Positions 1 through 43,727 of a DNA stretch of 64,000 bases are shown here, piece by piece. Within the stretch, counting starts at the first letter, position 1. The number at the start of each line of letters is the position of its first letter. The stretch spans positions 310,001 through 374,000 of the forward strand of contig NW_024067910.1 in NCBI RefSeq assembly GCF_009389715.1, read 5' to 3'. The notes beneath the pieces are model-generated. The model ran no database searches. It was not told the origin of the DNA and saw nothing but the letters and a program-made list of their open reading frames with translations. The DNA is from Phoenix dactylifera (lineage: Eukaryota; Streptophyta; Magnoliopsida; Arecales; Arecaceae). A program made the translations under genes and the position numbers.

Positions 1-3000
1 ATTTATGGCCAGCTCCCCTTGTTTTAATAAAAATTGATGCCCCACCACATAGAGGTGGGTGGTCCCTTCTTCCTTGTGTCTCATGTCATCTCTCTTCTCC
101 CCTTCTCTTTCTTTTCTCCCTTTTTCTTCTAAGATTCTATCTTTCATTCTTTTTTGATGTTCCCTTGACCTGAAATCTGTTACAATGTATCAGAACCAGG
201 TTAGATCATATGTTTCGCTGCCTGAAAAGAAAAAGTGAGGATGAAAACCTAGCTGCGAATGAAGTACTCTGTCTGTAAGAGTGTTTCTTCTTGTAGTTTT
301 TGGGATGTGGAAACAGGATGTGGAAACAGGCAGTGGGAATCCCACTATCTGTTTGTAGCAGTGCCCTCAAACAAAGCACGTGATGATGTGGAAACAGGAT
401 TGTTCAGGAGCTGATGGTGTTCTATTTCATGTCAGGCTCTGTCAAGGAGTAATTCTACATCTATCATGTCATCCCAGGATTGCTGGATGCTGGAAAGAGC
501 CCACATTTTGTTCTTAATTGAGTGTATTATAGGATGCTGTTCGACAGATCTTTGATGTGAATTACTTGCATTGTAATTATTTGCAACATAATGCAGATCA
601 GGCCAGTGGTATCTCAGTCCAGTGTCAGGTTTGAAATACTTGCACTGAATTACTTGCAATGGTTTGAAACTTTGAATTACATGCATTGTAATTCAGTTCA
701 GGTTAGTTATTTATAACAGGGAATATTTAGTTTACTTTATTTATACCAGGGGTTATAATTTGATTGTAATTTAGCTCATAGTGTCTCTCTTTGTTTGAAC
801 AGGAGCAATCTCTAAATGTCATTGTAGGATAACACATGTTCTTACAAGTGTTGATGCATAATATTGTCCGTATAAAATTGGATTCATTACAATACAACTA
901 TGCTATAACATTGTGTGACTCTGATTTATAAATAGCATAGTTCAAATTGTGAACATAATTATGGCAAAACTATCACCAAAATGATGCCACCATTTCAATT
1001 CATTTCACTGATACACTGTCCATTGACTTAACCTGAAAACAAGCCAGACATTTCCTTTTGTCAATTCAACATTTTCAAACAGCCTAATATTTAAGCTAAC
1101 CTAACATTTTGAATAACCTCACATGTCAAATAAACAAGGCTTGCAGACTTGGTACCGGATACTGTACCAGTACCCGACCGGTAGGTACACTCTATACCGG
1201 CTATCAATATGATACATACCCCTCAGTATTGACACTTGAAACAGAGGGTGTACCAAGTCTCAGAACCTATTGGCACGGTATGGTGTGGTAGGCCCCATAC
1301 CGAATACTATAACCCAGCATCACAAACTTTGCAAAGAACTAAAGAGATGCATTTCCCACTGCCTCCTCATATGAAGCTACTTAAAACAAGCCTTTGATAG
1401 TCATTCTGGCATCCCAATTCCCCTTATCACACTCCATTGCCAAGAGGCCACTGTGATCACCCAGGAAGCAAGAAAGAACAATGCAAAACACTTATTTCTG
1501 GCTTCGCAGACCCAATTTCATTCTCTAGCTTTCTGTTCTTCTAGATTACCTTGTTGATGAGTCCTACATGGAGAGGTTGGAGGATCATGTCACTTCAAAA
1601 AGCCACACTCTGTTTGTCTGCAGCCAAAATTGATATGAGGGAAGGAAAATCAATGGGGTTCAAGCAAGCACCTTACATCATCCATCATGCACCCACAGAA
1701 GTTTCGTCCAAGGTTAGCACTAGTCCAAAAGGTCCTCAATGGAGCTCTCTTTCCAAAGATAAAGTATAGGAAGGGGTTGAGCAGAGAAAGGTCGGAGCCT
1801 TGGCAGGGACTTTTGCCAAAACTTTGATATGATGGCATGATCTCTTTACTTTGGGTTGACTCTTTCTATCCCCTTCTATCTTTCTCAATCTAGTTCTGGA
1901 CTTCTTCAAGGTTCCTCACTTTGGGACGAAGTCCTGGTTACTCACTTCAGGTTGAACACGACATAATTGGAGAAGAGGATCACATGAGGGGCATGTGGTT
2001 CACTTTCCTTTAAGCACCAAAATGGCCCCCTCAGTAATTAGGGACTAGGGGAATTTTGGGAACAAGGGTGCCTATCAGCCATCACATGGTGGTCACATGA
2101 TAGGTTACACCCAACAACGCTTGAGGGTTGTGAATGATTGAATCATATTGCAACTAAAAAATAGCATCACATGTTAATTGAAAAACCATGTAAATTCTTT
2201 CTTAAGCAAACTGATTTTTGCATGGTTTATTTTGAATGATGCTCTTTATTGCTACTCTAATTTGATTTTTATATTTAGTTTGTATTACTCTTCTATATTT
2301 AATTTGTATCACCTATCTCGAAAGACATGCCTCACATGAGCCATCAAGTTGACTTGGCTTGAGGAAACTTTTGGAGTAGGTATGTCAAGTCCGAGCATAC
2401 AGTTTCCATGCTTGATCCAATTTCCAACCTATACCCTCTAAAAAGCAACTATTACTGATCATCCTTATATGAAGAATGACCTAACCAAGTTTTGCAATCT
2501 AGGTACCAGACCCCATACCAAGACTCGATATGCCTTTGGTTTGGTACCAATATGATACGATATGCTCGGTACAGGGCATACAACGAACGTTGGACCTAAC
2601 TATATCCCATATTATTTTCATCCAGTTATGTGGCTTTTCAGCAGTAGTTTGTGTAACACTGCTAAAGTAAGTAACTTCTAAAGAGATTTTACTGCTTTCT
2701 ACAAACAACCCATGGGCCTTAAGAAGATCACATCATGGGTGAGGGAGTAACTTAGACTAGGGCATGAATGATCACATCACTTGGTTTACTATTCGGATGC
2801 ACAGCTTACTGCTTCTTGCCTCATGTACTTTCCAAAGTCACAAAATTATAATATGGCACATCCTTTCTCCTCTTTCAGATTTGCCAGATGACTCATGCAT
2901 GCAGAGAGCATGCAAGTTAGGAACCAGATGACAATTGTCTTTTATATGAAGAATGCTTCTAGCGTCAGATTACAGATTTAATGGACATTATGCTTCACAC

Positions 3001-6800: not shown

Positions 6801-9800
6801 ATTCAATAATTCTATTTCGTCTTGAATTTTTTATATGTCGTCGATATATGGACGATGTTAATGGTGACATTAATTTTTGTTTTTCCAGAATTTATATAAT
6901 TTATAATTTAATTAAAAAATTTAAAAATTAATTTTTAATTAAAAAATAGAAATTGAAACAAATTAATGTGGTCGTAGGAATGGAGCCATCAAGGAGAGGG
7001 CAACCCCAAGAGCATAATATTGGCTAGGAGCATGGAAAGATGCTCAGTGAACGATACCAGTTTCAGTGCAATTATTGCCACAAGTGCTTCAAGGAGGAGG
7101 GGTAACCAGATTAAAGCAGCATTTAGCCGGTAATTCTCGTGAGATATCTGCATGCTCGGAGTGCCCACCGAGCACCCGTCAGCTGATGAGAAAAAACCTC
7201 GCTGAGATCAAAGCAGCCAAGGAGAGGGCTGCCAAGCAGACAGCGGAGGTGGAACGCCAAGCTGCAGAAGCACCTTCCTATCACTTGATGGAGTCACAGG
7301 AGGTCGAGGGTCCAGATGAGGAGGAGGCACAGATTCAGGCTGCCATGCGGGCTTGTCTGGATGATCGGTGGCAGCAGGAGGAGGTGGCAAGGCATCGGGC
7401 TCGATTTGGGCCCTCGTTTTTCGAGTCGGGCGCCGGTTCTGGTGGAAACAGACAAGATCCAAAGTTTCAAAGGACAACCTCAGTCAGGAAGGGCGAGGAC
7501 AGAGGACGTAGCCGGATTGCATCTATCCTGGGTGGTTTTGATGGCCGAAAGTAGTCTTCCGGAGGGATTCCACCAGGTGCGTCAATCCATGATGTAGATC
7601 TGCATGCCTTCCCCAGGAGAGATTCGAAGCAGCAAAGAGTAGACACAATGTGGAAGAAGGAGAAGAAGAAGGATATGTGGCGAGCTATTGGATCCTGGTT
7701 CCACTTTAGCCACATTCCAGCGAATGCTGCAGACAATACATACTACAAGTCTGGCATTTCTGCCATACAGTTTGCCGGTCCCGGTGTTGATCCTCCAGGC
7801 CCAAAGGACATCTACGTTGAGCTTCTTGACAACAATAAGGAGGAGCTACAGAATTGGATTGGCTCATATAAGAGCAAGTGGCCCATATATGGGCTCACTT
7901 TGATGTGTGATGGTTGGACCGGTCCGACAAAGCGGGCCATCATCAACTTTCTGATATACTGTGATACGAAGACCTTCTTCCACAAGTCAGTTGATGCTTC
8001 GGATAAGGTGCACAACGCCTCATACATCCTCAGACTTATGGAGGAGGTGATTGAACAGATTGGAGAGGAGAATATCGTGCAGGTCGTCACTGATAACGGG
8101 CCACAATATAAGTTGGCCGGGCAGGTCTTGATGGAGCGGCGACCCTAAATTTTCTGGACCCCATGTGCTGCACATTGCATCGACCTCATCCTGATGGACA
8201 TTGAAAAGATCCGTAGGGTACAACATACGGTGGAGATAGCCCAACGCATCACCAGGTATATTTATAGCCATACTTGGGTTCTTTCATTAATGAGAAAGTA
8301 TGCAGAGGGAGAAATTCTTAGACCAGGAGTCACACGGTTTGCTACGAATTACATTGCACTTGATAGCCTTATCGAGAAGAAAGGAGCCCTACGTCAGATG
8401 TTTGTCAGTTCCGAGTGGCAGGAAAGTAGATATGCCCAGGCCGGCACTGAAGGAAGCAGGATGGAAGACTTGGTAAGCAGGTAGTCATTCTGGCAGCGGG
8501 CCAATGCGATAATCAAGGCTATCAAACCATTATATAAAGTGTTGCGGGCCGTGGATAGCGAGAGGTATCCCCAGATGGGCTTTTTGTATCACATGATGGA
8601 GAAGGCAAAGGCTCAGATCATGGAGGCAGATGTAGCCCATGCCCAGGAGTACATCGACATCATTGAGCGGCAGTGGGGAGCCCAAATGGGTAGAAAATTG
8701 CATCTAGCAGATAAGCGATAATATTGATAATTATACTGATTGATATATTTGTATAATTATACTAAGATGGTGTCATCTATGTGCAGCATACTATCTGAAT
8801 CCCCGGTTTCAGTACGAGAGTGGAATTGGTATGGATGATGAACTTCTTCATGCTCTGCGTAATGTTATTTATAAAATGAAGCCTGATCCAGAAGTCACCG
8901 CATCATGTATAGAAGAGGTAACTATGATTTAGTAGCATATGTAAATATATCGGATCTTATATTATTGACATACTACAACAAGCTTCTTTCTACAGACCAA
9001 ATTATTTAAAGAGGGCAGCCACAGTTTTGGACAGCGACCAGCTGTCGTAAGCAAGACAACTATGAATCCAGGTACATTACAAATCTGCAAGACATTTTTG
9101 CATCTGAATTATCTTCAACTATGAGGCCATCATATATGTAAAATGTAATTATCTTCAATATTTTTGTAGCTGAATGGTGGATTCATTTTGACGGATCCGC
9201 AAAAAATCTTAAGCGGATAGTTATCCGGATCCTCTCCCAAACGGTCTCCTCGAGTGGCTGTGAGCGCAACTGGTCCACCTTCGGCCTCATCCACAGCAAA
9301 TAGAGGAACCGTTTGACACAAAAGTGCCTCAACGACCTAGTTTATGTGCACTACAATCTGCGGTTGAGGCTAAAATGCATTCAGGAGGAAGTGGAGCTCA
9401 AGTATGCAGATCCCATCTATAAAACTTTTACAAATGATGATGATAATCCTATGCTCGACTGGCTTGCGGCCCAGCAGCAGGAGCCCGAGCTTGATGAGCC
9501 AGGATCGCCTCGACGACCAGCCAGCATTATAGCCACCGAGGTTATGGTCGATCCACAGCAATGGGCTGAGTGCGACATTTCACGCACTCCTACAGCTGAT
9601 ATGACGTGGCTAGAGGGGAGCCAGTCACCGTATGATTGGTACGACGCTCCCATTCAAAGAGATGATCCTCTCATGCGAGGACGAGGACACTCTAGTACCC
9701 AGTCGACTCGATCAGGAGGGCATCAATCCCAGCAAAAGGAAAGGAAAGGGCCCCAATGGAGAGTGTCAAGGAGGAGACTTGGACCAGCAGTGATGAAGGT

Positions 9801-24740: not shown

Positions 24741-26067
24741 CTAATTTAAAATAGGTTTTTTTTTGTATAAAACACACAATGAGTGATTGCACTGTGATGT
24801 ATTGAATTAGTCATGAGTATACAAATCCACTTCTTTGAACCAAAGCTAGGGCTTTGTTGCCACTGTGATAGGATCCTGAAAACAACTAGTATTTGTACTA
24901 GGATCTTTTGTTCATGATATTTTACATGATGATGCATGCATTTAAGGTTAAAAAGAATTATATCTTATTGATGATTATGGAGTTGATTTTTATAATATCA
25001 AGAGAGAGACCATGAAGACATAGCTACGCTACAATGAGATACGACCTATGATAACACGAAGTCAACTATAGCCACCTATATAAACAAAAAAAATATTCAA
25101 CTTAAATAAAATATTAAAAAATCTAAAATTTCTAAATAATTAAATAAAGAAACAAATTACTGGTATAGAGTTTCTAAATCCCAAAAACACAAATGTTCAA
25201 ATCCTATAATTTCAAAATTTACAAATTATCAATTACACCTATTATCAAAAGTTCTTGAAGTTTCAAGGTACTTGGACTCACCATCAATCCTTCTAAATTC
25301 CAGCAATAGTAGGTGGAATGCTTTGTATTTCTCCAACCAGCCTTTAACTTTCTATCCTATTTTGATGAGAAAACAAGAGAAATAGGATGTAATGGTTACT
25401 TACTTTTACCGATGACAAACTCAGATACAATGTTTACTAGTCCACACCTAATATGTCTAATTAATCTAAAATTAATATAGACCCAACTCGTTCACATTAA
25501 CCATCAACATAAGAAATAAATAAATTATTGCTAATTCTCTAATTTTAAAGTTCTAATATTCGAATTATCCATAATTTTCCCGTTCTTCCTTAATAAAGGA
25601 TTAGGATTTTACCTTGATTTTGAGATCAGAGCATAAAATCCTTTGCTAGCTTCTTCTTGTTTGGATGTTTGCATCTCCACGTAAAATCAAGGCCGACTAT
25701 GAAAGGAGATTTGCATTAAAAAAGGACGAGGCCGGACAAGTGGCAATGCCTAGGGACCCAAGTTAGTCAAATCTAAGTGACTCAACTGGTAGATTGCGAT
25801 TTAGAAATCTTATCAGTGCAAAGATTATATGACATGGATAATCAATGATGGATCTCATGGATGCTCGACAAAGGTTGGATGGAGATCTACACATGGGGTG
25901 GTCACAACCATGCCAATCCATGATCCTCTACGTAGGTCAACTTGGCTCCACAGTAAAGGAGTATGGGACTCTCCAGTAGTCAAATCATGAAATACGAGCT
26001 AGGCTAGAATACAGATAGCTTAGTAAGGATTGACGATGGTCAATTCCAGTGGTGCATGACAAGGATC
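24741..26067. other. Intergenic, nothing recognised
   Basis: A/T-rich to mixed sequence between the MITE and the CACTA element. No coding frame with family resemblance and no clear repeat boundary. Confidence 0.5.
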
Positions 26068-26092
26068 CACTACAAGAAATTTGGACATTAGA

Positions 26093-26263
26093 AACGCTTG
26101 CATCCTCTGTCTTACCGCGGCTGCTGGCACAGAGTTAGCCGATGCTTATTCCTCAGATACCGTCATTGCTTCTTCTCCGAGAAAAGAAGTTCACGACCCG
26201 TGGGCCTTCTACCTCCACGCGGCATTGCTCCGTCAGGCTTTCGCCCATTGCGGAAAATTCCCT

Positions 26264-26313
<50 letters not shown>
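26093..26313 (-). rRNA. Plastid 16S rRNA gene fragment (nuclear plastid DNA), non-functional
   Basis: On the minus strand this reads the conserved 16S stretch from GCCACACTGGGACTGAGACA through CTCCTACGGGAGGCAGCAGT to GCCAGCAGCCGCGG and GATGCAAGCGTT, about 221 of roughly 1,490 bases, covering the 5'/central domain including the 530-loop region. Wording is plastid-like rather than bacterial, from memory of chloroplast 16S. The few visible differences from the plastid form include C/T-type changes (for example AGTAGGG where AGTGGGG is expected), which fits decay in methylated nuclear DNA. It lies entirely inside the CACTA element, starting 25 bp from its left tip. Confidence 0.88.
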
Positions 26314-26498
26314 AAAAAGCAGGGTAAAGAAAAGCCTCGTTTCCAGCAATGTGAACCTTCTTGGCTCGTATGATTCCATCGGGTGGGTCCCTAAAGCTGC
26401 AAATCGGTGGGTGGACTAATTTCTAACAATTGCTTTAGAGATCCGACTTCTTTTATGCACCAGTGCTTGAGAGGTGGAGGGGATGTCCACGCTTTTTT

Positions 26499-26990
26499 TG
26501 GCTATTAGCGACGCTTTAAAGCGTCGGTAGAAACCATCCCGACGCTTTCCAAAGCGTCGGTAAAGCGTCGCCTATGCTACAGTGGAAAAAATATTTCCCG
26601 ACGCTTTTAAAAGCGTCGCTAATTCCAATTTAGCGACGCTTTAAAGCGTCGCTCTTTCACGACGCTTTAAAGCGTCGCGAATTCCTATTTGCCAAAAAAA
26701 ATACCATTTGCGGTCTGCATCTTCTCCTCTATTCAGAAATACAAACAACCTCCCCGATCGGTACCTTCATTCCATCCGCGCAGAGTGGTTGGGTTTGGCT
26801 ATATAAACAGTTTTTTTTTTCAGATCCACCGATGTGGGACGAAGATGAGGTGATTTTTTTGGCTTCCGACGACGCTTTTAAGCGTCGTTATTTAATGACG
26901 CTAAAAAGCGTCGTTAAAAGTTGCGACGACGCTTTTAAGCATCGTCATTTGCCGACGCTTGGAATAAGCGTCGGCAAATAAGAGTCGGTA
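26499..26990. repeat. CACTA subterminal palindromic repeat clusters
   Basis: More than ten copies of ACGCTTT(A)AAGCGTCG-like palindromes and half sites lie in two clusters, 26499-26690 and 26862-26990. In CACTA elements such clusters bind the TNPA-type transposition protein. The cluster expected at the left tip is missing; the plastid fragment sits where it should start. Confidence 0.75.
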
Positions 26991-27117
26991 ATGTTCTTTT
27001 TTTGTGTAGTGATCGGTGTGGGGGGGAGGGGCTTACATGTTGCTTGGCTGCCAAGAGGTCAAGACCCCTCTATCAAGGTCAACCTAGGTTACAGGGAAGG
27101 GATCCTTTGGAGTACAC

Positions 27118-28110
27118 CCATCATCCAAAGAGAGAAAATGACACTTACTAGTAATATTTTGTAACGTTATACGAATATCTTATAATAATCAAATATACTA
27201 GAGCTGCATGCAAGTTTTAGGTTAATAATACACGCTTGCAAATCCAAAGGTGAAATAATGTATAATTTTATAATGTTGACCCATCATCCAAAAAGAGCAA
27301 ATGACACTTACTAGTAATATTTGTAACATTATACGAATATCTCATAATAATCGGATATACTAGAGCTGCATGCAAGTTTTAGGTTAATAATGCACACTTG
27401 CAAATCCAAATGCAAAGTAATGTATAATTTTATAATGTCGACCAAATTAATATTTTGATTTTTTTATAACTTTTGTGTGCAATACATGTGCCAAATAATT
27501 AAAGGTGAAATAATGTATAATTTTATAATGTTGACCCATCATCCAAAAAGAGCAAATGACACTTACTAGTAATATTTGTAACATTATACGAATATCTCAT
27601 AATAATCGGATATATTAGAGCTGCATGCAGGTTTTAGGTTAATAATGCACACTTGCAAATCCAAATGCAAAGTAATGTATAATTTTATAATGTCGACCAA
27701 ATTAATATTTTGATTTTTTTTATAACTTTTGTGTGCAACACATGTGCCAAATAATTAAAGGTGAAATAATGTATAATTTTATAATGTTGACCCATCATCC
27801 AAAAAGAGCAAATGGCACTTACTATAATATTTGTAACATTATACGAATATCTCATAATAATCGGATATATTAGAGCTGCATGCAAGTTTTAGGTTAATAA
27901 TGCACACTTGCAAATCCAAATGCAAAGTAATGTATAATTTTATAATGTCGACCAAATTAATATTTTGATTTTTTTTATAACTTTTGTGTGCAACACATGT
28001 GCCAAATAATTAGTAATGTATAATTTTATAATGTCGACCAAATTAATATTTTGATTTTTTTATAACTTTTGTGTGCAACACATGTGCCAAATAATTAGTA
28101 TTATATATTC
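27118..28110 (+). repeat. Tandem array of about 255-bp units
   Basis: The start word CCATCATCCAAA recurs at 27118, 27281, 27536 and 27792, the last two spacings being 255 and 256 bp. The first unit is shorter (163 bp) and more diverged, and a further partial unit ends near 28110. Each full unit includes GAGCTGCATGCAAGTTTTAGG and GTCGACCAAATTAATATTTT. The last two full units are nearly identical, suggesting recent unequal exchange. No coding function. Confidence 0.9.
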
Positions 28111-30735
28111 TTTCCTAGTATAATGCGAGCTCCTTGAAATGAGTATTATACATACATAAGATTTAATCAAAACTAACTCAAAGTGTTAATGATTGTTTTC
28201 AAGAAATTAATCATTGTATAATTACTATGCCCGACTTTGTGACTAGTATCTATTGCATCCATGTCAAGATTACTGCTACCAATCAATATGGATACAACAG
28301 TTTATAATTATTTTATTGCTTGATTTTATATTAAAACATACTTGACTTTATGAATTAGATGGATAATTGCTAATTAGATCCACCAGTTTCAACACCCATT
28401 TCACACACTAAGTCTCTAAATCGACACATCTTGCACATATCATCATAGTTCATCCTCCTCGTAGATGCACGTAGGATTTCTTGGTGCTTTATAGCCTTTG
28501 AGATGTTTCCTTTCGTAGCTCAACTTAATCCATGCAATAAAATAATACATACATGCTGAGATGCATGTACACATGAATCTAAAATATAAAATAAATATTT
28601 TAAACATGAGAATAATAACTGCCGTAGCCTTTATAGAAAGCTTCAGCATTTAAAAATGAGGAAAAGGAAAAGGTTGGGCACTTTGAGAAAGTAATCAGTG
28701 ATTTATTTAAGGCAGAAGCGATTGATAATAATCTTGCAAAGTGATGTACATGGATCTGACCCACCCCCTGATTAAAATGGAGCATGCAAAGCTGTGCAAG
28801 CAGTTTAAAGAAGCAAACTTTGGAGTAAAATATTCATGGAATTATATTCCATGAACAGTTTTGTGAGAGCACTGCATAAGTTAATAATTACATAAAAAGG
28901 ATTGAAGCAATAAAAAAAAGGTCCTGTGGGGAAAAATATGTGTATGACCATCCTGAGAACAATTTTTACTAGCCGTGCTATGGAAATGAGAAAAGTGGTT
29001 CAGGAGTTAGGATAGATATGAGCATGTTTAACAATTAATTACCACTCTAAATGGAAACAATTATTCTACGACTGTGAACTTTAATGCTGCATTTTAAAAT
29101 GGGAAATTATGGAAGGAAATCTTGAAATTATTAGAATTTAATTGTCAGTATCTGTTTAGATTCAGTGGAATTTATGTAGGTGCTGTGCGTTCTTTCTCAT
29201 CTGAAGAACCCCGTGTCCTTCTTTATAGTACCCTTAAAGGGGGTAAGGTAATACCTTGTTGACTTCTTTTCTCTTCCTCTTTATCATATCAAAGTTTTCA
29301 ATTTGTACCTTCAAAATGTTTTGATACTGTTATCTGTACTTGCATTTGGATATTTGATACTTGATTGTGCCTAAAGGCTTTCATCTTTTACACCAAAATA
29401 ATTTAGTGGGCCTTGAAAATTTAATAGGTGAGGCACATACCTGTAGCATCCAGTGGTCGGTCTTGAAAGGAACTCAATAAAACACCACAAAGAGCCAAGC
29501 CAAGAGGAAGCATCATTTAGAGCTTGGACTTGGTAAGACTTAGGTGGCGATGACATATAGGGGTCTTGGAAGAAATAAAGGCTAATGTTGTCAAAATAAG
29601 GTGAAGGGATTTCATTTGACTAAGTGCCATACATGACAACCTGCACATCTAATGTCATTTGTTCTTCTTGAGAATTTTACGGCATGAAAATGATATTATG
29701 AAAAAAATATGTAATAAAGACAAGCGTATAATATATTATCAACATCTATACATGACAACCTGCACATCTAATGTCATTTGTTCTTCTTGTGCTCTAGTGT
29801 CACCCTAAACCTCAGTTGTTGTGGAAGAGCTGGCTAAGAGGATATCTATAATAATATATTATCTAGTTAGGCATCTTTATCCTCCAATTAGTTTTCCCTC
29901 TCTTAGTTCATCATATACAGTGATAATATTTCTTTCTTCAATAGTATGGATGTTTTTTGAAGCAATAAATCTCAATAGCAAGCTCCATTTTATCCTACCC
30001 AATGTGCTACGGCCATTTCAATGTCTGCTTTTGGCCTTTCCCACTCTTTATGTGAATTTACAAGAGGCACCATCCTTTAACATCTACTATTAGGTTAAAT
30101 CAATATATCCTCTAAATTTTAATTCTTACTCATGGGAGAGACAAGAGAAATACAATGCCCAAACTAGGAGTGCATATTCAAAAAATAATAATAATAATTG
30201 TATTAGGAGATCATAGCCATCTATGCTACTTATCATGTGTGTTGTATGCATAAATTACAACAATGTAAGAATGAATAATCATGCACGTAGCATTAATTAT
30301 GATCTAGTTGAATGCGAGCTATGATTGGCATTCAAATAAAGATGACGATTGAGCTTGAAATTCAAAATGAGTTACTTAAAAATAATTGGCACAAATGGAA
30401 TTCAAACATGTGAACTCCAACAAATTTGAGCTCCAACATCAATGTCAGTTATCCAATTAACTCTGAGAGCTTCGACTAATAGGGAATGAGTTAAGAATGC
30501 GTATTTTGCTTAGTAAGAAATCTTTCCCACTTTTGTCTGCTCAAACACTAGCAAATTTTTTTTAATCCATAAAAACAACTGTTTTAACTACCACTAATAC
30601 CGATCTTTACAATATTGGCCACCTCCTTTTAAAGAACTCACCATCAATTTCTCACCTCACCCATAATCTTATTGAAGGCTATAGTTCTCCAACACTCACA
30701 TTAAAAGTAGCAATTGTGGAAATGATAGTAGGTTT
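28111..30735. other. Intergenic, nothing recognised
   Basis: A/T-rich sequence. A short direct repeat, ACATGACAACCTGCACATCT followed by AATGTCATTTGTTCTTCTTG, occurs at about 29630 and 29752. No gene or element boundary was found. Confidence 0.5.
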
Positions 30736-30740
30736 CCCAA

Positions 30741-31511
30741 TGTTGGAATATTTTAAAATTCCAATTCTGCCCTTCTTTGCTTTTTGCCTTTTTGTTTAGT
30801 GTACTTCCTTTAGTCCCACATTGGAAAGAGATAAAACTTAAAAGGTCTTTATGTAGTATTCAGCCTTTCTAACTTGGTGAAGCAAAGAAAGTAGGTAGCC
30901 CACGCGCGCATGAGCCCAATGGAGGTCCAAGCCAAAATTGGCGAATCCGATCCGGAAACGTTTAGCCGGGCGCGTCGCGCTCAATTATCACGCGCAGGGG
31001 GGGACCCCCCCCCCCGCGGGTGTGGGCTTGAGTCAGGTTTTTGTTTTGAATAAAACGTCGCGTCTTTAAAACACCTCTTTGGTTCTCTCTTGATAAAACG
31101 GGCGTCTTTAAAAAACACCTCTTTCATAAAACGACGTGTCTTTTAAATACGCCTCTTTATTTCTTTTTTAAACCCCATCAGATCCGATAGAGTTATCAAA
31201 TAAAAATCTCTCCTCTCTCTGGCTCTCAGGCCTCCCTCTGGTTCCCGAAAGCCTCTGCCTCTCTGTTCTTCTTCCCGAGATACTCTTCTCTGTTGTCATT
31301 CCAAGAGTGCGGTTCTGGGCTGTTCGACAGTATCACTGCATCTGCGAGTGTACGCTTGGAGTGATCCAGTTGTTGTATCCTGGAGGATAGGCCGCCATTA
31401 CCTGCTACACCGAGATTCAATCTCCGAGGGGCGCGATCTATTCTTAAGGACAGTGAAATCACGCCTCAACTGATAAGTTCTTCCTTCTCTCCATCTATAA
31501 TTTTTCTTACA
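30741..31511. mobile_element. Solo LTR, 771 bp, 5-bp duplication CCCAA
   Basis: It begins TGTTGGAATATT and ends TTTTTCTTACA, the TG...CA ends of a plant LTR. Both flanks are CCCAA (30736-30740 and 31512-31516), a 5-bp target duplication as left by LTR retrotransposon integrase. No internal region or second LTR is near, so the body was probably lost by LTR-LTR recombination. The TGTTGGAATATT start is common in Ty1/copia LTRs, but superfamily is not certain. It contains a C-rich homopolymer run at about 31007-31015. Confidence 0.8.
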
Positions 31512-31516
31512 CCCAA

Positions 31517-32164
31517 CACCCTAGGGATGTCAATAATCCTCCACTTATACACCCAATAATAAATACAAGAATAATTAAATAAGTTAGAGCTTTATCTTGG
31601 TTTAGATGAAGGAAGAGGAGCAATGTTGAGGGAGAACTAATGTGGACGAGCGAGAAGACAAAATCGTTATTAAATATCCTCTTGTATAACAATCTACCAA
31701 TGATAATTAAAATAAGAACTATGTATCAAAAAAAAATCAAAATAAGCACATTGTCTTCATTAAAAATAGGAAGAAAGATTTTAAGAGATTCCTATGAAAT
31801 TACTATATATGTGTATGTGAGGGAGCCAATATAAGGCAGGGGGAAAAGACAAAGTAGTTACGAGTAATTTTCTTGTCTATTATTCCATAATGTTAACCAA
31901 CACAAGCCTACTGCCTTTCCTATAAATGGAACAAGGATGTCTGAACACTCCTAGGAAATATAATGTGCACATACATGCATGCATGCATATATACCTGTTT
32001 GTATCTATACTATAATCTATATTATATATAAAAATAACAGTTTTGAAATCAAAAAATATTCTCTTTTGATTTTCTTTGCTAATTTTTATACCAAATATAT
32101 ACTTTCTATTTATCTTGAAAATACTTTACTTACTCCTGCTAACTTTCTCACCTTGACTAATATA
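31517..32164. other. Intergenic, nothing recognised
   Basis: A/T-rich sequence with a (GCAT)n-like run near 31972-31988. No gene seen. Confidence 0.5.
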
Positions 32165-32647
32165 TGGGCTCGTTTGGTTCGCGGGAAAAGAAGGGGGGAA
32201 AGTGTGGTCAACGGGAAAGTAATGAGATGCCTCTTGTTTGGTTGGAGTTTTCAAAGGAGAGAGAAGGGAAAGTTGTATTCCCATGGGAATGTGATTCCCA
32301 CATTTCATGGGAAAGTCTTTCCCATGAGAAACATGGGAAAGTTACTTTCCCATGAGGCGGGAATCACTCCATTTTTACTTTTTCCCAAAAAGTCCCTTCA
32401 GCATTAAAGAAGCATTAAAGAGGCATTAAAAACCTAATTTTTATTAAGGGCATAATAGTAATTATATATAACTTTCTTAGGAAAGTGGATGGCCAACCAA
32501 ACATAAGCACATTGGAAATTTGTCACTTTCCCATGGTCAACCAAACATGCCAAAAGTACTTTCCTAGGCATTCTCTTCCTAGGAATTTGTTTCCCAGGAA
32601 TCATGTTCCTAGGAAAGAAAATGTTTCCTGCGAACCAAACGAGCCCA
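32165..32647. mobile_element. Inverted-repeat MITE, TGGGCTCGTTTGGTTCG tips
   Basis: The left end TGGGCTCGTTTGGTTCGCGG matches the reverse strand of the right end TGGGCTCGTTTGGTTCGCAGG almost exactly over about 25 bp, and inverted similarity continues inside (GGGAAAG/CTTTCCC words). Flanking bases are TA on each side; if real, this is a 2-bp TA duplication. The superfamily is uncertain. The open frames inside are by-products of the palindromic structure. Confidence 0.75.
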
Positions 32648-36551: not shown

Positions 36552-39159
36552 TGTCACGCCCCGAACCCAGCACCCGGGTCCGGCACGCGACCGGCCGCAT
36601 GAGCCCTAGAGCAGTGCCCTAAAGATCATGCAAGGCCTATGTTTAACAAAATTCCAATAAATCCACGATTAATTTAATAATTCAAATAGACAAGTCCGAC
36701 ATATCCAAATAAACAAATTAGTTCAATTACAAGATCTTCAAATGTTCATCGACATCAAAGAAGGACAAATAAACTGACTAACTAATGACTCTGATGTTCG
36801 CACTCTGCGCCCATCCCATCCAAAACTATGCATCCTGCAACTCTGATAAAGAAAAAGAAGAAAAAGGGGTGAGCTTTACAGCCCAGTAAGAATCCCTACA
36901 CATCCATACCAACACAATAATAATATGAATTCGAAAACCACGACAAATCGATGTACATTTCATGAAATCATAAACCGGCTATCAAAAGGCTCAAATAATC
37001 AATATAAGTATGTACGTCAAATATCAATGAAAATCCAACCACGCAAGAATGATATAGCATACGATAGCTCATAAATCTTCATTAATGTTTTCAATGCTTT
37101 TTCTTTTCATTCTATATTAACTTGATCCGGATTAATTATCTTTCCGACTTTGGGTCAAATCTCAGTCACATTTCTCAGCCTGTGGTGGGGCAACCAAATT
37201 ATCACATTTTCAGCCTGTGGCGGGGCCTGCACATTATAGTTCCACATTTCTAGCCTGTGAGGGGGCCTACCAAAGTATCACATTTTCAGCCTGTGGCGGG
37301 GCCTGCACATTATAGTTCCACATTTCTAGCTTGTGAGGGGGCCTACCAAAGTATCACATTTTCAGCCTGTGGCGGGGCCTGCACATTATAGTTCCACATT
37401 TCTAGCCTGTGAGGGGGCCTACCAAAGTACCACATTTTTCAGCCTGTGACGGGGCCTGCCATAATAACAAGATAAACCCAAAGTCCCTTTTCATACAATC
37501 CAGTTTACATCCACACATCAATTCCTTTATATTTATTTCCGGCTTTAAACTAACCACGGTCACGTTTCCAGCCCGTGACGGGGCAACCAATATCACATAG
37601 TTAGTTTAGTGCACCACATCCATCAGTCCAATTATGTAGGTGTAAGTTATGCGCATGCATGCATCCATCATAATACCAACCACAAGCGAATACGATCATA
37701 ATATCAACCACAAGCCAACACGATCAAAATATAATTTAGTATAAAACTATTTTCGATTTATCTGGATTATAGCATATCATACATATCTAAGTATAAAAAT
37801 ATTATATCATGCAGGATTGGCGTACAAGGATCCTTACCGAAATTGTAGACTGACTCAAATACGGTCCGAATCACAACCTACGCGCTGGGGTGCTGAGTCC
37901 CCTGATCAAACCTCCTGGCTCCGCCGACTCTTCCTCTACAACATCAATTATAAATCACAACTAAATTATTTAATATTTAAATATTCTAAACCATAATTCA
38001 TATCTACTATGGCGTCCATCACCAGGTCCCCAAACATCTCAATCCCTCAAATCTAGGGCAGTCGGGGTGGCCCGACTCCCACCCTGTACCACCGGTCTAT
38101 GTCGTCGCCAGCCGTGGCCGCTGCCACACCAGCGATGATGGCCGGTCCCGGTGAAGAGACCAAAAGAAAGGGATGATCCCTCTCTCTTCATGGTTGGAAA
38201 TACATCTCCCTCCCTCAAATCCTTTTTGATCCAAGGGCAACAACCATGGTGGCTGTGCCCTCTCCTTCCCCAACCCGACATCACCACTGGCCGAACCATC
38301 GCCGGCCGCTACTGTTGCAGTCGCCGGCGATGGTGGTCGACCAAGAGAGGGAGAGAAGAAGAAGTTTCTTCTCCTTCTTCTTCTTCTTCCCCCAAAACTG
38401 ACACAGGGTCCCCTCCCCCTTCCTCCATTCATCCACAGAAAAACCACCGTGATGGTGGCTTGGCTCCCCCCCCACCCGACAGCAGCCACGGTGGCCCACG
38501 ACCGCCACCGTCGTCGTCGCCGGTGGCCATCCGACGAGGGGAAGAGGAGGAGAGGATGGGATCCCGAGGAAGAGGACCTCGGATCCACCCTCCCTCATCA
38601 CATACACATCCTAGAAAATCCTCTCCGACCTTCATACGAACCCGACCAGCCCCACCGCCATGCATCTCGGCCATCCCGGCGGCCGGCGGCGGCCAAAAAC
38701 TTGAAAGAAGAGGCCGAAACAGGGGTACCCTGTTTCGGGCTCTTCTCCGACGATTCACCGGCCAAAAACCCCTCCCACACGACCCAAAAACCAAGCAATG
38801 AAACGCAAGGAAGAAGCCACGCTTACCTCGGTCCGATGGGGGTGCTCCGGCGGCCTTTCCGGCGACAAAATCGGAGAGGAAGACCTTCGGATCCCTAAGC
38901 TTCTTCGCCCGATTTGTGAGGAGTCTTCACGAAGGGAAGAGGTCGCTTTGCGGCCGGCCGGATCTCCTCTCCGGTGCTCGTCTCCTCCGGCGATCGACCT
39001 CACGCCGGACGCCGCCGCCTCCCTTTTTTTTTTTGTTTCTTCTCCCACGATCGTGCCCTAGGCACGATCGTATATGGTGGATGGGCCCGGTCTTTTCGGG
39101 CCGGCCCGTCCACCCCTCTCTCTCTCTCTCTTTTTTTTTTTTTTTTTAGGGGTATTACA
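36552..39159 (-). repeat. LTR, left copy (3' LTR in element orientation)
   Basis: 2,608 bp, TG...CA ends. About 119 bp longer than the other copy, mainly from extra units of an internal tandem repeat near 37180-37430. Open frames of up to 216 codons in it are G/C-rich artefacts on both strands; they recur in the partner LTR and show no known domain. Confidence 0.92.
37180..37450 (+). repeat. Tandem repeat inside the LTR (about 75-bp units)
   Basis: Units of the form CACATTTTCAGCCTGTGGCG ... GCACATTATAGTTCCACATT ... GGGGGCCTACCAAAGTA occur about three times in the left LTR but only about once to twice in the right LTR (about 41890-42010). Because the LTRs are identical at integration, the difference arose after insertion or by template slippage during reverse transcription. 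Confidence 0.8.
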
Positions 39160-41238: not shown

Positions 41239-43727
41239 TGTCACGCTCCGAACCCAGCACCCGGGTCCGGCACGCGACCGGCCGCATGAGCCCTAGAGCA
41301 GTGCCCTAAAGATCATGCAAGGCCTATGTTTAACAAAATTCCAATAAATCCACGATTAATTTAATAATTCAAATAGACAAGTCCGACATATCCAAATAAA
41401 CAAATTAGTTCAATTACAAGATCTTCAAATGTTCATCGACATCAAAGAAGGACAAATAAACTGACTAACTAATGACTCTGATGTTCGCACTCTGCGCCCA
41501 TCCCATCCAAAACTATGCATCCTGCAACTCTGATAAAGAAAAAGAAGAAAAAGGGGGTGAGCTTTACAGCCCAGTAAGAATCCCTACACATCCATACCAA
41601 CACAATAATAATATGAATTCGAAAACCACGACAAATCGATGTACATTTCATGAAATCATAAACCGGCTATCAAAAGGCTCAAATAATCAATATAAGTATG
41701 TACGTCAAATATCAATGAAAATCCAACCACGCAAGAATGATATAGCATACGATAGCTCATAAATCTTCATTAATGTTTTCAATGCTTTTTCTTTTCATTC
41801 TATATCAACTTGATCCGGATTAATTATCTTTCCGACTTTGGGTCAAATCTCAGTCACATTTCTCAGCCTGTGGTGGGGCAACCAAATTATCACATTTTCA
41901 GCCTGTGGCAGGGCCTGCACATTATAGTTCCACATTTCTAGCCTGTGGCGGGGCCTGCACATTATAGTTCCACATTTCTAGCCTGTGAGGGGGCCTACCA
42001 AAGTACCACATTTTTCAGCCTGTGACGGGGCCTGCCATAATAACAAGATAAACCCAAAGTCCCTTTTCATACAATCCAGTTTACATCCACACATCAATTC
42101 TTTTATATTTATTTCCGGCTTTAAACTAACCACGGTCACGTTTCCAGCCCGTGACGGGGCAACCAATATCACATAGTTAGTTTAGTGCACCACATCCATC
42201 AGTCCAATTATGTAGGTGTAAGTTATGCGCATGCATGCATCCATCATAATACCAACCACAAGCGAATACGATCATAATATCAACCACAAGCCAACACGAT
42301 CAAAATATAATTTAGTATAAAACTATTTTCGATTTATCTGGATTATAGCATATCATACATATCTAAGTATAAAAATATTATATCATGCAGGATTGGCGTA
42401 CAAGGATCCTTACCGAAATTGTAGACTGACTCAAATACGGTCCGAATCACAACCTACGCGCTGGGGTGCTGAGTCCCCTGATCAAACCTCCTGGCTCCGC
42501 CGACTCTTCCTCTACAACATCAATTATAAATCACAACTAAATTATTTAATATTTAAATATTCTAAACCATAATTCATATCTACTATGGGGTCCATCACCA
42601 GGTCCCCAAACATCTCAATCCCTCAAATCTAGGGCAGTCGGGGTGGCCCGACTCCCACCCTGTACCACCGGTCTATGTCGTCGCCAGCCGTGGCCGCTGC
42701 CACACCAGCGATGATGGCCGGTCCCGGTGAAGAGACCAAAAGAAAGGGATGATCCCTCTCTCTTCATGGTTGGAAATACATCTCCCTCCCTCAAATCCTT
42801 TTTGATCCAAGGGTAACAACCATGGTGGCTGTGCCCTCTCCTTCCCCAACCCGACATCACCACTGGCCGAACCATCGCCGGCCGCCACTGTTGCAGTCGC
42901 CGGCGACGGTGGTCGACCAAGAGAGGGAGAGAAGAAGAAGTTTCTTCTCCTTCTTCTTCTTCTTCCCCCAAAACTGACACAGGGTCCCCTCCCCCTTCCT
43001 CCATTCATCCACAGAAAAACCACCGTGATGGTGGCTTGGCTCCCCCCCCACCCGACAGCAGCCACGGTGGCCCACGACCGCCACCGTCGTCGCCGCCGGT
43101 GGCCATCCGACGAGGGGAAGAGGAGGAGAGGATGGGATCCCGAGGAAGAGGACCTCGGATCCACCCTCCCTCATCACATACACATCCTAGAAAACCCTCT
43201 CCGACCTTCATACGAACCCGACCAGCCCCACCGCCATGCATCTCGGCCATCCCGGCGGCCGGCGGCGGCCAAAAACTTGAAAGAAGAGGCCGAAACAGGG
43301 GTACCCTGTTTCGGGCTCTTCTCCGACGATTCACCGGCCAAAAACCCCTCCCACACGACCCAAAAACCAAGCAATGAAACGCAAGGAAGAAGCCACGCTT
43401 ACCTCGGTCCGATGGAGGTGCTCCGGCGGCCTTTCCGGCGACAAAATCGGAGAGGAAGACCTTCGGATCCCTAAGCTTCTTCGCCCGATTTGTGAGGAGT
43501 CTTCACGAAGGGAAGAGGTCGCTTTGCGGCCGGCCGGATCTCCTCTCCGGTGCTCGTCTCCTCCGGCGATCGACCTCACGCCGGACGCCACCGCCTCCCT
43601 TTTTTTTTTGTTTCTTCTCCCACGATCGTGCCCTAGGCACGATCGTATATGGTGGATGGGCCCGGTCTTTTCGGGCCGGCCCGTCCACCCCTCTCTCTCT
43701 CTCTTTTTTTTTTTTAGGGGTATTACA
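41239..43727 (-). repeat. LTR, right copy (5' LTR in element orientation)
   Basis: 2,489 bp. It starts TGTCACGCTCCG and ends GGGGTATTACA on the plus strand, followed by the ACACT duplication and the resumed response-regulator exon. Expression of the element would start in this LTR and run leftwards, antisense to the host gene. Confidence 0.92.

Follow-up and report, generated by a model that had tools for sequence, protein, structure and literature searches.

Plastid and mitochondrial DNA joined inside the tips of a short CACTA element of the date palm

How does a stretch of organelle DNA come to lie between the tips of a single DNA transposon, and has the transposon since carried it to a new place? 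The question is raised by a 944-bp element at 26068-27011 in a window of 64,000 nucleotides from Phoenix dactylifera; by the window we mean the whole stretch of DNA analysed, C263:310001-374000 of an assembly of 773,078,369 bp in 2,391 contigs. An initial annotation had described intact CACTA tips, an ATC target duplication and a 221-bp plastid 16S rRNA piece 25 bp inside the left tip. All three are present (Table 1), and the plastid piece is matched by Rfam. That account of the cargo had missed its mitochondrial half, at 26315-26488.

A short non-autonomous CACTA family

Read from the window sequence, the element is non-autonomous, with intact tips CACTACAAGAAA.../...TTGTGTAGTG at 26068 and 27011. 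It has the characters of the non-autonomous CACTA (En/Spm) class, namely CACTA...TAGTG tips, a 3-bp duplication together with an empty site (see below) and short subterminal repeats (GACGCTT/AAGCGTC), which are present within 26489-27011 and appear as self matches in the element's own locus, L001.

The element belongs to a family of short non-autonomous CACTA elements. The uninterrupted left 32 bp of this family is found at 180 genomic sites at up to two mismatches (places being given for the first 100), as against none for a reversed control pattern, and the right part also has many relatives, with 152 matches from the best 40 of 816 candidates. The spot that holds the cargo is uninterrupted in all 29 relatives fetched (CACTACAAGAAACTTGGACATTAGCGACGCTT or a near variant). 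Exact 3-bp duplications flank 21 of the 29, a count mildly biased by a script for choosing tip pairs that favoured equal flanks; 18 distinct duplications are found among the 21, whose elements are 546-694 bp long. Two pairs of relatives, L007/L008 (99.97%) and L015/L024 (99.0%), are each one site on two contigs, so that the 29 represent 27 sites and the assembly holds both versions of some loci.

Compared with its relatives, the window copy has lost CG and gained 397 nt. Over the joined tip and body, the nearest of the fetched relatives, L002, differs at 15 of 540 sites, and 15 of 548 sites differ between the window copy and the family majority, position 26092 included. Outside the cargo, with 26092 excluded, three changes are private to the window copy and four are common to it and one of the 29 relatives.

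A transposase partner with the element's own tips was sought and none was found. Transposase_21 gave 150 matches among the best 150 of 534 candidates scored. None of the element family's tip or subterminal repeats is present in the 9.5 kb of the one transposase locus read, L069 (C176:78500-88000). The match in that locus is a CACTA-class transposase, one of a group with near-equal scores at 11 places or more, C176 included, each with a 779-aa open frame; the group is possibly a young autonomous CACTA family.

Table 1. Features of the element and its cargo, in window coordinates
Feature	Position	Strand	Evidence or remark
Left copy of the 3-bp target duplication (ATC)	26065..26067	.	Single ATC at the counterpart on contig C1293
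Left CACTA tip, comprising the 24 bp before the cargo	26068..26091	+	Relatives run ...GGACATTAG-CG-ACGCTT uninterrupted
Single A, neither the family base (C) nor that of plastid-like copies (T)	26092..26092	.	Filler or mutation
Plastid 16S rRNA gene fragment, 221 bp	26093..26313	-	Rfam; plastid-like nuclear copies; cyanobacterial plasmid records
Single A between the plastid and mitochondrial parts, agreeing with neither	26314..26314	.	
Mitochondrial fragment, 174 bp	26315..26488	.	172/174 identical to C2390:258255-258428
Remaining CACTA element: ACGCTT subterminal repeats, middle part, right tip	26489..27011	+	
Right copy of the target duplication (ATC)	27012..27014	.	Read from sequence

Cargo from two organelles and its joints

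The plastid piece is recognised by the Rfam family SSU_rRNA_bacteria on the minus strand (184.7 bits, E = 1.5e-54). The span of that match, 26094-26557, was rejected as a single rRNA piece: beyond 26313 it consists of mitochondrial and element DNA forced onto the model. Plastid-like nuclear copies match the piece at 98% over 177 bp (L034), 92% over 128 bp (L036) and 93% over 149 bp (L035). Among plasmid records ranked by coverage times identity, cyanobacteria come first (91.0%, 89.7% and 88.1% over 98-100%), and 35 of 372 records match at 95% identity or better outside the best-ranked ones, presumably over shorter lengths. The divergence of the plastid piece is gauged from the nuclear copies and cyanobacteria because the species' own plastid 16S reads N (masked) where examined; an exact plastid 16S stretch was sought outside the P. 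dactylifera genome and none was found. The sole candidate for a private change is C>T at 26263, where L034, L042 and both cyanobacteria have C, L035 has T and L044 G; of the more distant copies, L039 has T and L045 C.

Words that we take to be the sites of primers 341F and 515F are present in the plastid piece without mismatch, and that of 518R with one. The initial annotation's worry over false 16S amplicons is nevertheless minor, since the plastid's own 16S should swamp the element's piece.

Directly 3' of the plastid part in window coordinates, beyond the single A, lies the mitochondrial part. A search with 26068-26488 (20 of 20 candidates scored) matched query positions 248-421 to contigs C2390 and C435, the latter equal to C2390 over the 474 bp compared. 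The assembly includes a mitochondrial contig of 715,001 bp, and C2390 is mitochondrial by its size and by cox1, for which no other full-length match was found (32 of 32 candidates scored). The two differences from C2390, G>A at 26345 and C>T at 26361, are as expected of a methylated nuclear copy and not of organelle reads. In C2390 the 174-bp stretch is flanked on both sides by mitochondrial, not plastid, DNA; the 7 kb around it gave no Rfam match, and three open frames of 74-88 aa reach its edges, none spanning it. The cargo is therefore 221 bp of plastid and 174 bp of mitochondrial DNA, with a single A before each. A mitochondrial genome already holding plastid 16S at this place was rejected as the source, since C2390 is mitochondrial on both sides; nor has C2390 another match to the 421-bp query, although masked stretches would stay invisible.

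The mosaic cargo thus measures 397 nt, two of its joints having a single additional A, and it stands in place of the element's CG. At the left joint the element's ...ATTAG is followed by one A and then by plastid AACGCTTGC, where the element's own next bases are CG ACGCTT; ACGCTT is common to element and plastid DNA, and in register. Random joints had a common run of at least 6 bp within 0-2 nt in 0.11% of 200,000 draws. The proposal of the initial annotation that ACGCTT served as capture microhomology accordingly keeps some force, the match being suggestive yet imperfect because two other bases precede it; on a strict reading, in which an A of unexplained source comes before the plastid DNA, ACGCTT may be a coincidence. 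The plastid/mitochondrial joint has one extra A and no overlap. At the right joint mitochondrial ...GTCCAC meets the element's ACGCTT with a 2-bp microhomology, AC. A 6-bp target duplication ACGCTT around the cargo was also considered and rejected, the left ACGCTT being plastid sequence (L034 and L036 read ...GGATAACGCTTGC). The cargo has the marks of a numin: nuclear DNA in which plastid and mitochondrial pieces adjoin, with the end-joining signature of blunt or short-microhomology joints.

In the 773-Mb assembly the left joint is found at one site at up to two mismatches and the right joint also at one, with none for either control. The plastid/mitochondrial joint has one exact site and four more with one or two mismatches, as against four for its control; the 3-kb loci of these four near-matches do not contain the word CACTACAA. 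A second copy with the same cargo was not found in the assembly, each of the three joints being single. The initial annotation held that the whole unit had moved with its cargo, and looked to several copies with different target duplications as proof; the joint search yields one copy only, so that this proof is wanting. A word scan of other organelle-piece loci (L032-L050 and L057-L060) found CACTACAA only in L049, some 1.2 kb from the match, the right-tip word only in L050, some 0.4 kb away, and subterminal words in L036 and L043, where by position they are plastid-like sequence, and in L041 (some 0.8 kb away). No second element of the CACTA family around organelle DNA was read among these loci.

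An element-free contig and the order of events

The left 1-kb flank of the element has a 99% partner on contig C1293 (82,033 bp), which is collinear with the window, with further indels, in the three stretches read: 1-3000, 26000-31600 and the 4-kb L062, corresponding to about 23.6-35.7 and 54.9-58.4 kb of the window. At the counterpart site C1293 reads GACAAGGATC|AGTGTGG where the window has GACAAGGATC-element-ATCGGTGTGG, with one ATC and no element, cargo or footprint, and with one substitution (G/A) beside it. C1293 is probably the second haplotype, left among the contigs: the species is heterozygous, FALCON-Unzip was used for the published assembly (PMC6794320), and there are other loci present on two contigs. 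The sequenced palm probably carries both states of the locus. C1293 may instead be a recent segmental duplication, and the empty-site reading stands either way.

Other differences between the two contigs are also visible. Directly right of the element, at 27116-28107, is an array of 162/255-bp tandem units, whose word occurs four times there and twice in the C1293 locus L062. Absent from C1293 are a 771-bp TG...CA stretch at 30741-31511, with CCCAA on both sides, which looks like a solo-LTR-type insertion difference, and a MITE-like stretch of about 475 bp at 32172-32646 with inverted ends GTTTGGTTCGC.../...GCGAACCAAAC.

Were the filled site ancestral, C1293 would have lost the element by precise excision. 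CACTA elements do excise, but the empty site has a single ATC and no footprint, with one G/A substitution next to it, and we regard this course of events as improbable. More improbable still is an assembly artefact in which organelle reads were joined into a transposon. The single assembly would leave room for such an error; against it, the mitochondrial part bears two substitutions of the kind that nuclear copies gather, and a second contig, collinear where read, lacks exactly the element at its duplication.

We consider it very probable that organelle DNA served as filler during the repair of a break inside a CACTA element, leaving a numin, that is a mosaic NUPT-NUMT, nested in a transposon. 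We favour this explanation because the joints, with their 2-bp AC, extra A and in-register ACGCTT, resemble those of numins (PMC6215612) and of single-copy Pack-TIRs (PMC8277862), and because the relatives are uninterrupted in 29 of 29 cases, the mitochondrial part agrees with C2390 at 172 of 174 bases with differences of the C>T/G>A type, and the empty contig has one ATC. The break would have occurred 24 bp from the left tip, and end joining or template-switching repair would have closed it with the 221-bp plastid 16S piece and, attached to it, the 174-bp mitochondrial one, two element bases (CG) being lost. Against this explanation stand the strict reading of the left joint, the gauging of plastid divergence by nuclear copies and cyanobacteria, and the lack of the family's repeats in the one transposase locus read.

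The time of this repair relative to the element's arrival bears on mobility. There is about an even chance that a single repair event gave the transposon its DNA from both organelles and that it transposed afterwards, so that the cargo was acquired before the last transposition and the 944-bp unit landed whole at ATC. Element and cargo are jointly absent from C1293, as this would require. The organelle-derived cargo (395 bp) has two sure changes, or three if 26263 C>T is counted, making 0.5-0.8% as against 0.35% per lineage of the two contigs, which differ at 83 of 11,712 sites or 0.71% (HSPs under 600 bp and overlapping HSPs dropped); the three private and four common changes outside the cargo point the same way. 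Against such a move stand the single copy in the assembly and the fact that the excess of cargo changes over contig divergence is not significant: at 0.35% per lineage, P = 0.17 for at least three and 0.41 for at least two changes in 396 bp, and 0.13 for at least two in the 174 mitochondrial bp. Moreover, the contigs differ by 11 substitutions over the 2.5-kb left flank, and 9 of these fall in the 271 bp adjoining the element (25797-26067), so that at this place the split may be older than average. The cluster itself may be an older local haplotype, a conversion tract or a product of error-prone repair.

Alternatively, the element may have inserted first, free of cargo, and received the organelle patch later on the window haplotype, the unit never having moved. 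The chances of this are somewhat short of even. It sits well with the single copy, and animal Pack-TIRs of one copy are described as arising mainly by the filling of gaps, with no transposition involved (PMC8277862); but both events must then fit into the time since the contigs split, for which the cargo changes are if anything too many, though not significantly so. The initial annotation had looked to an empty-site comparison for signs that the patch came later, and C1293 gives none: it lacks the whole element and has one ATC, which neither dates the cargo nor excludes a move of the unit. Nor do the body mutations or the contig divergence place the patch before or after insertion. We lean slightly towards a patch older than the element's arrival at ATC, that is, towards the 944-bp unit having moved once with its cargo.

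Relation to numins and Pack elements

Numts, nupts and numins are generally accepted to arise when organelle DNA serves as filler in break repair (PMC6215612), and P. dactylifera is among the nine genomes of that numin study (Portugez et al. 2018). As in the numins described there, plastid and mitochondrial fragments are here joined at one nuclear site by blunt or microhomology joints; the present numin, however, sits inside a transposon with both tips intact, and the string 'transpos' is absent from the main text of that paper. Pack-CACTA or Pack-TYPE elements (PMC8903248; review PMC13317346) similarly have non-autonomous CACTA tips around foreign DNA, for which aberrant excision of neighbouring elements is the proposed route. 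Their cargo is described as nuclear gene pieces, the organelle terms looked for being absent from the main texts of both articles, whereas the cargo here is organellar.

Single-copy Pack-TIRs formed by gap filling (PMC8277862) share with the date palm element the single copy, the filler inside the element and the joint microhomology. They differ in being described from animals, and the paper's main text has neither 'mitochondri' nor 'organel'. According to the same paper, microhomology-guided switching fills gaps inside animal TIR elements, and a test in plant Pack-MULEs is called worth exploring.

In Arabidopsis and sorghum, according to a review (PMC7037861), numerous NUPTs and NUMTs lie together with transposable elements, and closeness of organelle DNA and transposons is therefore not new. 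Organelle DNA enclosed in the tips of one element, as here, is absent from the relevant passages of that review, and a literature search of titles and abstract openings, within limited listings, found no CACTA or other DNA transposon carrying organelle DNA. Both ingredients are known; a numin inside the tips of one transposon is a new combination as far as this search goes.

With three sources, joints read to the base, 180 uninterrupted left tips that show the state before the event and a contig without the element, the locus is well resolved, and it would link the transfer of organelle DNA to the nucleus with the repair of a transposon. Should the whole element have moved together with what it carries, transposition would be a further way, besides new transfer, for organelle DNA to spread within a nuclear genome, and counts of NUPTs and NUMTs as independent transfers would have to be checked for it.

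Elsewhere in the window, 37278-39141 recurs in direct orientation at 41854-43715 (98% over 1,869 columns), at a distance of about 4.6 kb, and both duplicates lie near an array with the unit CACATTT..CCTGTGACGGGGCCTGCC. An open frame at 7555-8148 has a DUF659 match (E = 1.9e-37), a domain that we take to be found with hAT transposases.
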